From Acidobacteriota bacterium (lineage in GTDB: Bacteria; Acidobacteriota; Terriglobia; UBA7540): a DNA stretch of 64,000 bases. This document shows, piece after piece, positions 526 to 3,846 of the stretch. The stretch covers positions 310,001 through 374,000 of the forward strand of contig SCRD01000018.1 of the NCBI GenBank assembly GCA_004298155.1. Direction: 5' to 3'. Both the position numbers and the translations under genes were made by a program. Position 1 is the first letter of the stretch. Every line of letters starts with the position of its first letter. Under the pieces are notes generated by a model. It was not told the DNA's origin, searched no databases, and worked only from the letters and a program-made list of their open reading frames with translations.

Positions 526-1230
526 CTATCTGCTTGTGGTGACCGCCGCCTGAAGCGCGCTCATATCATAAATGATCACCTTACGGCCTTCGATCTTGAG
601 GATCCCTTCGGACTGAAATTGGCTGAGGTTTCTGGAAACCAGTTCCCGAACGGTGCCGATCTGGAATGCAAGCTCCTGGTTGTTAACACTCAATGTAATT
701 TCGATTCCATCTGGAGTCTTCCGGCCTTTGTTATTGGCTTGTTGCATCAGCCAGGACGCCAGGCGATTGCGGACCGTCGTGAAAGAAAGTTCCTCGATGA
801 TTCCCACAAGGTGGCGCAGCCGTGAACTGACCACTTTCAGGACTTTCAAGGACACTTCAGGCCGTTCGAGGCACAACGTGCGGAGGTCTTTTTTGCTGAT
901 GAAAAGGAGCGTACACCTGTCGATGGCGGCTGTTGAGGCCGGATAGTTCCCACCATCGAACACCGGAAGCTCAGCGAGGGAATTTCCGGCTTTCTCGATG
1001 TGCAGTACCTGCTCCCGCCCGCTTGCGGACGTGTTGAAAATCTTCACGCTTCCAGCCTGAACGATATACATGCCCTCGCAGATGTCGCCTTCGGAAAATA
1101 TAACTTCGCCCGGCCCGTATTCCCTGGACATTGCGCGGTCAGCCAGCATTCCCAGTTCACGGTCCGTTAGATCAGCAAAAAGCGGAACGCTGCGAAGTGA
1201 CTGAATACGGCTGGTCTTTGTGGCATCCAT
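526..1230 (-). CDS. Crp/Fnr-family transcriptional regulator
   Basis: This 234-residue protein has the Crp/Fnr layout: an N-terminal cyclic-nucleotide-binding-like beta barrel (about residues 15-125, with the GEVIFSEGD and GxxxxLAELPVFDG turns), a long dimer helix, and a winged helix near residues 165-225. The recognition helix reads TVRELVSRNL, so the R-E-x-x-x-R positions used by E. coli CRP to read TGTGA are kept. There is no FNR-type N-terminal cysteine cluster, so the effector is probably a small ligand, not an iron-sulfur cluster; that is inference. It is divergent from a second Crp-type regulator, and a TGTGA-like dyad lies between them. Confidence 0.92.
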   Translation of the reverse strand: MDATKTSRIQSLRSVPLFADLTDRELGMLADRAMSREYGPGEVIFSEGDICEGMYIVQAGSVKIFNTSASGREQVLHIEKAGNSLAELPVFDGGNYPASTAAIDRCTLLFISKKDLRTLCLERPEVSLKVLKVVSSRLRHLVGIIEELSFTTVRNRLASWLMQQANNKGRKTPDGIEITLSVNNQELAFQIGTVRELVSRNLSQFQSEGILKIEGRKVIIYDMSALQAAVTTSR

Positions 1231-1336: not shown

Positions 1337-1352
1337 AGTGATTTACGTCACA
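1337..1352. promoter_or_regulatory. CRP-like operator AGTGA-N6-TCACA
   Basis: The 16-bp dyad AGTGA-TTTACG-TCACA differs from the CRP half-site consensus at one base. Its centre (1344.5) lies about 41 bp upstream of the start expected from the -10-like TTAAAT at 1374-1379, which is the class II activator position for the regulator gene starting at 1395. It also lies in the divergent control region of the regulator starting at 1230. This suggests auto- or cross-regulation. Confidence 0.6.
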
Positions 1353-1394: not shown

Positions 1395-2252
1395 ATGAAG
1401 AGCTCTGGAAAGTCAGGCCCATTTGCCAAAATGAGAGCGGGTGCTCTGGCCTCGGGAAGGCCTTGGGACAAATGCCTTACGGAATTTGTCCAGGCGCTTG
1501 AACCTGTCAAGTCTCTTGTGAACCTGCCCAGGCACGCCAGACTGCTCGAAGAAGGAAAGGCGCCGGAAGGCATCTTTGTCCTCTTGCGCGGAAGCGTCAA
1601 GCTTTTTGTTGCCTTGAAGGGTGGTAAGACACTGATTCTACAAGTCATCCAGACCGGGAAAGTGCTCGGCTTGAGCGCCACGATGTCCTCCAAGGCGGCC
1701 GAATATACCGCTGAGACCCTGACCCCCACACAGTTTCTGTATGTGCCACGGAAGGATTTCCTCTCTTTGCTGGAGGAACGTCCGAGGATTTGTCTCTCAG
1801 TTGTTGAGATTTTGAGCCATCAACTTCGCGAAGCAGTGAATATGATTCATTATTCCTCCGGACCTCAACCCGCAGTGGAAAAACTCGCTGATCTGCTGGA
1901 GTTGTGGGTTGAGGAATGCGGAGAAGTCACGGAGCGTGGCATCGAACTCAAACTTCCGCTGACGCAGGAAGAGATCGGACAGATGATTGGCGTTTCGCGC
2001 GAGACGGTTTCACGCCTCATCGCTGAATTTGAGCAGCAGGGTATATTGGAATTAGAAAGTTCGCGGGTACGGATATTGAAAGGCCGCCACCTTGAAGACC
2101 TGATGATGGTCAAAAACCGGAAAGGCTTAAAAGATAGTACGGAGGCAAAGCCCTCAGACGCGCCTTCAAGAGGAGACGATCCCTCTGCACAAGCGCAATC
2201 TGACGGCGACCCTGCGCCGAAAAGTACTGGTCAAAGGGAGGTCGTGCGTTAA
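1395..2252 (+). CDS. Crp/Fnr-family transcriptional regulator with polar C-terminal tail
   Basis: This 285-residue regulator has a cNMP-binding-like barrel (about residues 35-145) and a C-terminal winged helix. Its TQEEIGQMIGVSRETVSRL segment is nearly the CRP helix-turn-helix, with R-E-T-V-x-R as in CRP. That predicts a TGTGA half-site, and such boxes stand before this gene and the neighbouring radical SAM gene. The last ~45 residues are polar and low in complexity (Ser, Asp, Pro, Gln), an extension not typical of the family. The stop overlaps the convergent radical SAM gene by 4 bp. The start at 1395 leaves a very short leader behind the proposed promoter. Confidence 0.92.
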   Translation: MKSSGKSGPFAKMRAGALASGRPWDKCLTEFVQALEPVKSLVNLPRHARLLEEGKAPEGIFVLLRGSVKLFVALKGGKTLILQVIQTGKVLGLSATMSSKAAEYTAETLTPTQFLYVPRKDFLSLLEERPRICLSVVEILSHQLREAVNMIHYSSGPQPAVEKLADLLELWVEECGEVTERGIELKLPLTQEEIGQMIGVSRETVSRLIAEFEQQGILELESSRVRILKGRHLEDLMMVKNRKGLKDSTEAKPSDAPSRGDDPSAQAQSDGDPAPKSTGQREVVR

Positions 2253-3337
2253 GCGTGCGCGCGAGTTGCGCGTGGCTGATAAACGCACGATGGGTCAGCC
2301 TCGAACGGATCGCCCGTCAAAGCGTAAGCCCGTGAACGGGAACCGCCACAGATTTCGCGAAATTCACACTGCCCGCATTTTCCTTTTAAGTTTGACGTGT
2401 CCCGCAGTTGCTTAAAAAGGGGTGCGTTCCTGTAGATTTCAGCCAGCGGTTCCTTCCGTATGTTGCCCGCTGCCAAAGGGAGGAAGCCGCTCGGGAAAAC
2501 CTCGCCACGGTGGGAGATAAAGACAAAACCCTTTCCATCGTTCAATCCGCGCGGGGCACGGCCAATGCCATCTCCCAAAGGCTTGCCAATTGGAATTAAC
2601 ACAGCTTGGCCATTGCTCCGCCGTTTCGCTGCCCGTTGCTGGGCCAAATAGCGCCTGTAGTGCTGGGCTTCGGTCGTTTTGATATCAAACTGGACGGTTT
2701 GTGAGACCGCTGCGAGCTTGGCAAACACATCTTCGAACTCCTCCGCGCTGACCAGATCCAGCAGTTGGCCCCGGCCAGTTGGCACCAGAAAGAACACACT
2801 CCACAAGACCATATCGAATGTTCTCAGGAGCGACACCATGTTTTCGAAGTCGGTCAGATTGCGTCGTGTAATGGTGGTGTTGATCTGTACGGGGAGTCCA
2901 AGTTCACTTGCCCACCGCACGGCATCGAGAGTCAGGGCATAGGAACCTGAAACGCCGCGGAATGCGTCGTGGATTTCAGCTGTTGAGCCGTCCAGGCTCA
3001 CGGCAAGCCTGGCCAGTCCACAATCGCGCAAACGGGCAATCGCGTCGCGGGTGAGCAGCGGCGTGGCGCTTGGCGTCATCGACATCCGGACTCCCCGGCG
3101 CGTGCCATACTCCACAAGAGAGTAAATATCCGGCCTTTTGAGAGGATCGCCTCCTGTAAGTACAAACAAGGGGGCTGCCATCTGGGCTACCTGGTCGATA
3201 AGCCCTTCCGCCTCTTCAGTCGAGAGTTCGAGAGGTGAGCGATGGGGCTGCGCACTGGCCCTGCAGTGGATGCAGGCAAGGTCGCAGGCTTGCGTGGTCT
3301 CCCAGATTACGATGAACGGCGTCTCGTTGAAGTCCAT
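2249..3337 (-). CDS. Radical SAM/SPASM protein, NirJ/AhbD-like (TIGR04053-type)
   Basis: The 362-residue protein opens with IWETTQACDLACIHCRA, where C-x3-C-x2-C binds the SAM-cleaving 4Fe-4S cluster, followed by the FVLTGGDPLKRPD loop. The C-terminus carries a SPASM-type cluster motif (CGQCEFREICGG, then a last Cys after GDPFEADPS) of the kind in heme-modifying enzymes such as NirJ and AhbD. The sequence looks closest to the TIGR04053 branch. The substrate is unknown: heme d1 or alternative heme chemistry is possible, but no other heme genes are nearby. Two CRP-like boxes lie upstream, so expression is probably under a Crp-type regulator. Confidence 0.85.
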   Translation of the reverse strand: MDFNETPFIVIWETTQACDLACIHCRASAQPHRSPLELSTEEAEGLIDQVAQMAAPLFVLTGGDPLKRPDIYSLVEYGTRRGVRMSMTPSATPLLTRDAIARLRDCGLARLAVSLDGSTAEIHDAFRGVSGSYALTLDAVRWASELGLPVQINTTITRRNLTDFENMVSLLRTFDMVLWSVFFLVPTGRGQLLDLVSAEEFEDVFAKLAAVSQTVQFDIKTTEAQHYRRYLAQQRAAKRRSNGQAVLIPIGKPLGDGIGRAPRGLNDGKGFVFISHRGEVFPSGFLPLAAGNIRKEPLAEIYRNAPLFKQLRDTSNLKGKCGQCEFREICGGSRSRAYALTGDPFEADPSCVYQPRATRAHA

Positions 3338-3409
3338 GTCATGCCCCTTGTTAGCCCCTGCCGCCGAAATGACTCATGTCCAATTTACGCACCTCCGGAG
3401 CGGGGTTTC

Positions 3410-3425
3410 TGTGACTAAGGTCACA
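3410..3425. promoter_or_regulatory. Perfect CRP-type operator TGTGA-N6-TCACA
   Basis: TGTGA-CTAAGG-TCACA is an exact CRP consensus dyad. On the minus strand a -10-like TAAATT lies at 3382-3387. The box centre (3417.5) is therefore about 42 bp upstream of the expected start, the class II activator position for the radical SAM gene starting at 3337. Confidence 0.72.
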
Positions 3426-3432
3426 ACTCAGG

Positions 3433-3448
3433 TGTGACGTCTGTCATA
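3433..3448. promoter_or_regulatory. Second CRP-type operator, TGTGA-N6-TCATA
   Basis: TGTGA-CGTCTG-TCATA is one base off the consensus and is centred 23 bp upstream of the perfect box, about 65 bp from the expected start. A class II box plus a second box near a class I position suggests two dimers acting on one promoter. Confidence 0.6.
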
Positions 3449-3642: not shown

Positions 3643-3846
3643 CCCTCTCCCAAGGCGTTATAATTCCCCTGACAGGCTGTTAAGGATTGTCCCGAGTGTT
3701 GCATTCTGAGTCGAGCGAAGCTCCTCCGCATGGACCGGTTAAATTGAATGCAGAGCTCTTCGGCACTCCAGCCGTCACGAGTGGGCATCAGGTACATTTA
3801 GATTCATAAGCATCGCAGAGTTCGCTGTAAATGAAATTTCAACTGA

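Follow-up and report, generated by a model that had tools for sequence, protein, structure and literature searches.

A conserved class II Crp/Fnr-type box before an AhbD-like radical SAM gene in Acidobacteriota, with a candidate nitrosative-stress regulon

Regulons of the HcpR, DNR and NnrR type are read by Crp/Fnr regulators that lack the cAMP residues, and their targets include nor and NO-defence genes (PMC1274295). The Desulfovibrio HcpR site has the form wTGTGAnnnnnnTCACAw, and helix residues R180 and E181 correlate with the TGTGA-type motif (PMC1274295). The locus described here resembles these systems in its regulator and in its nor and NO-defence targets. It differs in phylum and regulator lineage, and at the core of its target set stand RIC, NnrS and an AhbD-like enzyme instead of hcp or nir/nos.

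In Haloferax volcanii, the ahbD promoter carries a palindrome common to denitrification genes (CGAA-N4-TTCG), and a ChdC-type enzyme serves aerobic growth (PMC5746218). Without ahbD, anaerobic growth is strongly reduced, and growth by DMSO respiration is restored when heme is added (PMC5746218). An AhbD-type radical SAM gene beside nor genes, a palindromic operator in common and a ChdC-type enzyme were also found here. The Haloferax system is, however, archaeal, has another operator and regulator, and holds the complete siroheme (Ahb) route, whereas indirect evidence points to no AhbC-like protein here.

All AhbDs share CX3CX2C and CX2CX5CX20-38C, and those of non-methanogenic archaea have Glu/Ser replacing the AuxI cysteines (PMC10452713). 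The enzyme studied here resembles AhbD heme synthase (TIGR04545) in its motifs (CX3CX2C and CX2CX5CX20C) and in Glu/Ser for the AuxI cysteines. Unlike AhbD, it scores below the NCBI cut-off and belongs to its own family, TIGR04053, and its heme-synthase activity is putative. The coproporphyrin route can end with either AhbD or ChdC (PMC7242693), and ChdC is found in most Acidobacteria analysed (PMC10991733). Soils are rich in Acidobacteriota, and NO reductase can be present even in strains that lack dissimilatory nitrate or nitrite reductases (PMC5900883). The open papers searched yielded no described NO regulon of Acidobacteriota, and the paper search found nothing on TIGR04053. Taken singly, the components belong to known types (Crp/Fnr activator, class II promoter, NO regulon, AhbD-like enzyme). 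Their combination, the phylum and the lineage of the regulator have apparently not been described in those open papers, which are not all of the literature.

The window, the whole stretch of DNA analysed, is 64 kb long. Its features of interest are as follows.

526 to 1230, minus strand: reg1, Crp/Fnr regulator and candidate activator (Pfam cNMP_binding and HTH_Crp_2).
1337 to 1352, plus strand: third operator box, AGTGATTTACGTCACA, between reg1 and reg2, at class II spacing for reg2.
1395 to 2252, plus strand: reg2, second Crp/Fnr regulator (Pfam), preceded by a box with TTAAAT at 21 nt.
2249 to 3337, minus strand: radical SAM/SPASM (Twitch-type) enzyme, AhbD-like, TIGR04053.
3383 to 3388, minus strand: -10-like hexamer GTAAAT, 21 nt after the proximal box, predicted start near 3376.
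3410 to 3425, minus strand: proximal operator box, TGTGACCTTAGTCACA (minus-strand reading), predicted class II position, centre -41.5.
3433 to 3448, minus strand: distal operator box, TATGACAGACGTCACA, one mismatch, centre about -64.5.

The sequence between 3410 and 3425 is probably the class II activator site of a Crp/Fnr-family nitrosative-stress regulon, through which NO would run a heme enzyme. A pattern scan of the window placed an exact TGTGA-N6-TCACA there, with the two TGTGA half-sites and 6-bp spacer of a CRP-type operator. A copy with one mismatch, TGTGACGTCTGTCATA, lies 23 bp upstream. Both dyads had been reported in a first-pass annotation and were found as described, in the promoter region that separates the radical SAM gene from ligA (3859, plus strand). 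The same annotation gave TAAATT at 3382-3387 as the -10-like element. This hexamer is present on the minus strand (3387-3382), but the orthologues shift the -10 by one base, to GTAAAT at 3388-3383. The spacing of this conserved hexamer from the box places the box centre at -41.5, which is the textbook class II position. The geometry is that of a class II Crp/Fnr-dependent promoter with the start predicted from the -10 hexamer, and it agrees with the earlier placing of the first box about 42 bp before the start. The predicted leader of the radical SAM transcript is approximately 39 nt.

The third box, between the two Crp/Fnr genes, was missed in the first pass. It lies before reg2, is identical in a congener (G002), and has a counterpart before reg2 at the loci L023 and L087. 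In the window and at L023/L087 the box is followed approximately 21 nt on by TTAAAT or TAAATT, so reg2 itself looks like a regulon target.

Orthologues were drawn from whole-genome relatives and named Acidobacteriota genomes. Conservation was counted over promoters of TIGR04053 orthologues with at least 62% identity (55 distinct). The first-pass annotation had made its reading depend on dyads at orthologous loci; a matrix-supported proximal box was kept in 51 of the 55. The consensus was nGTGAC-TTTN-GTCACn, with the promoter-proximal half GTCAC nearly invariant and the distal half looser. Under a strict TGTGA match the box seemed to be lost in Acidobacteriaceae. This loss was rejected, as a degenerate left half revealed the box at the same place. 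Across 50 orthologous promoters, a -10-like TnnnAT begins 21 nt past the box (T(21), A(25) and T(26) dominate), and 21 was the top-scoring of all -10 offsets tested.

Class I and tandem promoters place the upstream box on one fixed face of the helix, at about -61.5, -72 or -82.5. A tandem distal box was present in 11/55 orthologous promoters, at spacings of 23, 28, 31, 33, 47, 57 and 59 bp, compared with a centre of -64.5 in the window; the 23 bp spacing was conserved in close relatives only. On this comparison it is the proximal box that is conserved; the distal box is a local addition, and the case for its class I role is weak. The distal box once described as 'near class I' is present, but only close relatives retain it, and its spacing varies.

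We derived a matrix from 27 distinct boxes in the TIGR04053-gene promoters of other genomes, leaving the window out. The best three sites of the window were at 3410 (22.5 bits), 1337 (19.3) and 3433 (16.5), and the next scored 12.9. With a threshold of 11 bits or more, a site was found in 86% of ScdA/YtfE (RIC) promoters; within genes the figure was 0% and in shuffled promoters 1.2% (Mann-Whitney p 3.6e-9, a value that overstates independence given the relatedness of the sequences). Boxes were present in about 30% of quinol NO reductase (qNOR) promoters, against 0% inside genes and 1.5% of shuffled sequences. About 10% of reg1 promoters carried a box, and reg1 autoregulation as a general rule is unsupported.

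The window's own genome has a box before qNOR (TATGATTTTTGTCACA), before one NnrS gene (NnrS1; TGTGACAAAAGTCATC) and in the NnrS2-ScdA intergenic region (CGTGACTTTTGTCATA). An operator common to NO-detoxification genes (RIC, NnrS, qNOR) and linked to a regulator (reg1) is the arrangement of a DNR/NnrR/HcpR-type NO regulon. Sites at hemA/ccsA and cytochrome c554 were left out of the regulon; these are exact CRP matches yet score approximately 8 bits by the matrix.

Three further arrangements were recorded. Immediately upstream of a quinol NO reductase gene there is a second TIGR04053 paralogue (L070:3357-4484, minus strand; G000:C16:168857-169984), and a box precedes the reductase. Two exact boxes, 289 bp apart, precede a multiheme cytochrome c cluster (L067:3486-3501 and 3775-3790; G000:C28:53486, 53775); the cluster includes a Crp/Fnr gene and encodes a second protein, whose only domain is the cNMP-binding one. 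In a second TIGR04053 clade (L132-L166, about 57% identity) a different conserved dyad, AGTGATCTGAATCACA, lies 120-230 bp before the TIGR04053 gene, and there is usually a divergent gene for a universal stress protein as well.

The two Crp/Fnr genes (526-2252) adjoin the radical SAM gene and are candidate regulators in plain sight. The reg2 gene is divergent from reg1, and its 3' end is convergent with the radical SAM gene, with an overlap of 4 bp. Orthologues of reg1 lay within 5 kb of a RIC, qNOR or TIGR04053 gene at 20 or more of 35 loci, a tally that is a lower bound, compared with 0/28 for a paralogue clade among the matches listed. At 20 of 45 named loci (at least 62% identity) reg1 was divergent from and directly beside the TIGR04053 gene, with the box between them, and NnrS, RIC and hemerythrin genes lay around such loci. 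R195, E196 and R200 (R195-E196-xxx-R200) were kept in 38/38 reg1 sequences; this triad accompanies TGTGA-type sites (PMC1274295). Of the regulators encoded, reg1 is the likeliest activator acting at the box, and would bind it directly.

The box might instead belong to a broader anaerobic-respiration regulon with an FNR- or FixK-like role; its reader would be reg2 or a further Crp/Fnr protein of the genome, and the NO genes would be a subset. This is unlikely, though it has several observations on its side. Matrix-supported boxes in the window's own genome also occur before molybdopterin oxidoreductase genes, before a cluster of multiheme cytochromes that has a Crp/Fnr gene of its own, and near Usp genes; reg2 carries the same recognition triad (R-E-xxx-R) as reg1; and the genome encodes at least five Crp/Fnr proteins. 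It is reg1 and not reg2, however, that recurs beside the TIGR04053 enzyme, RIC and qNOR, and RIC promoters are the most consistent box carriers besides those of TIGR04053 genes. Given these boxes close to multiheme cytochromes and Usp genes, anoxia instead of NO could be the signal. The anaerobic part of the circuit that the first-pass annotation had proposed is retained; its nutrient-linked part is not, RIC, NnrS and qNOR sharing the box.

Classical cAMP-CRP nutrient control is very improbable, even though the motif is identical to the CRP consensus and the best solved relative of reg1 is a PDB entry that we take to be Mycobacterium tuberculosis CRP. The reg1 and reg2 alignments were read against the Glu and Arg that presumably bind cAMP in that protein. 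Where that protein has the cAMP-phosphate arginine, reg1 has Tyr96 (all 38 aligned sequences have Tyr or Phe) and reg2 has Ala; the cAMP glutamate is also lost in reg2. The arginine is thus missing from both regulators and cAMP-CRP was rejected on residues; the targets, moreover, are NO-defence and respiratory genes. The earlier proposal of CRP-type control of a heme enzyme holds for the dyads, the class II placement and the AhbD-like gene, but not for cAMP-CRP.

FNR has an N-terminal cysteine cluster and TTGAT-N4-ATCAA sites. It was rejected as a model for reg1, which has no Cys in residues 1-50, hence no N-terminal cysteine cluster, and which has a helix of the R-E type and a TGTGA motif. 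With the arginine lost and this cluster absent, reg1 is predicted to be neither a canonical cAMP-CRP nor an FNR. By association it probably works like DNR/NnrR/HcpR, and we infer that it senses NO.

Chance matches deserve practically no weight: the motif is short and a few one-mismatch copies are expected (1.5 in the window, against 6 observed with at most one mismatch, a number reached in 1/100 shuffles of the window), but the box is conserved across families, its -10 spacing is fixed, the matrix was cross-validated, and the whole genome (5.2 Mb) holds 12 exact TGTGA-N6-TCACA sites versus 2 for the reversed pattern and 51 TGTGAY-N4-RTCACA sites (at most one mismatch) versus 11, so that the genome-wide excess, the matrix results and the orthologue comparison together discount it.

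The enzyme placed under the proposed NO-responsive box scored 496.6 bits against TIGR04053 in NCBIfam (cut-off 395). Its score was 348 bits with the AhbD model TIGR04545 (cut-off 500) and 170.5 bits with the NirJ (heme d1) model TIGR04051 (cut-off 515). Of the earlier label 'NirJ/AhbD-like', the AhbD half is borne out by the second-best model and the NirJ half falls far below. The CX3CX2C motif and the C-terminal CX2CX5CX20C motif have invariant cysteines (C18, C22, C25, C321, C324, C330 and C351). Conserved Glu/Ser stand where methanogen AhbDs have AuxI cysteines, as in AhbDs of non-methanogenic archaea, a positional match read from an alignment without those AhbDs.

A homologue in Haloferax larsenii has 49% identity to the window enzyme. 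It is likewise a TIGR04053 member with an AhbD score (342.8) below the cut-off of 500, and its gene adjoins halocyanin, norB-like and nirK-like genes. The same nirK/halocyanin/norB neighbourhood surrounds H. volcanii ahbD (HVO_2144) (PMC5746218). By gene order the H. larsenii protein is an AhbD, an anaerobic heme synthase; the match of HVO_2144 to TIGR04053 is one of gene order.

The window's own genome encodes a ChdC-family protein whose best NCBIfam matches are peroxide-dependent heme synthases, below cut-off. High-scoring TIGR04053-like proteins number only two in this genome, which points indirectly to a lack of AhbC. Apart from the radical SAM gene, no heme-pathway gene was found among the 13 proteins at 0.5-24 kb scanned with Pfam, or in ligA, assigned by NCBIfam, as the first-pass annotation had remarked for the vicinity.

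Two distant TIGR04053 occurrences were noted. On the Thermus plasmid pTHTHE1601 (L259) the gene lies in a cluster with genes annotated as nitrite reductase, DUF542 and Rrf2 and with a cbb3-type oxidase subunit (nor-like); because a gene annotated as nitrite reductase adjoins, a heme d1 role of the family is possible in Thermus. A 2.9 kb record labelled as a Campylobacter jejuni plasmid (NZ_CP029056.1), possibly contamination, encodes a TIGR04053 protein with 56% identity to that of the window.

In the proposed mechanism, reg1 would sense NO or anoxia rather than cAMP, bind the box in its active form, contact RNA polymerase and turn on the radical SAM gene; activation is here preferred to repression. 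The regulon would comprise the AhbD-like enzyme, RIC (ScdA/YtfE), NnrS, often quinol NO reductase, and reg2. The probable reaction of the enzyme is a conversion of coproheme to heme that needs neither O2 nor peroxide; the enzyme would supplement the peroxide-dependent ChdC under NO or anoxia, when NO reductase and cytochromes require heme. Against the nitrosative-stress reading stand the low shares of qNOR and reg1 promoters with a box (only about 30% and 10%), a genome (G058) with the enzyme and no close reg1, and the enzyme's score below the AhbD cut-off.

Since a ChdC-family protein is also encoded, control through the box may shift the final step of heme synthesis to a peroxide-independent enzyme under NO or anoxia. 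We tentatively suggest, at somewhat less than even chances, an NO-controlled bypass in Acidobacteriota, in which a Crp/Fnr NO sensor would call up a TIGR04053/AhbD-type coproheme decarboxylase to replace ChdC in the coproporphyrin pathway, beside NO reductase and iron-centre repair. The locus provides a candidate regulator, a matrix for the operator and a list of targets for a proposed Acidobacteriota NO regulon, and a candidate function for the unnamed family TIGR04053. It also suggests, in testable form, how heme may be completed without peroxide in organisms that use the coproporphyrin pathway.
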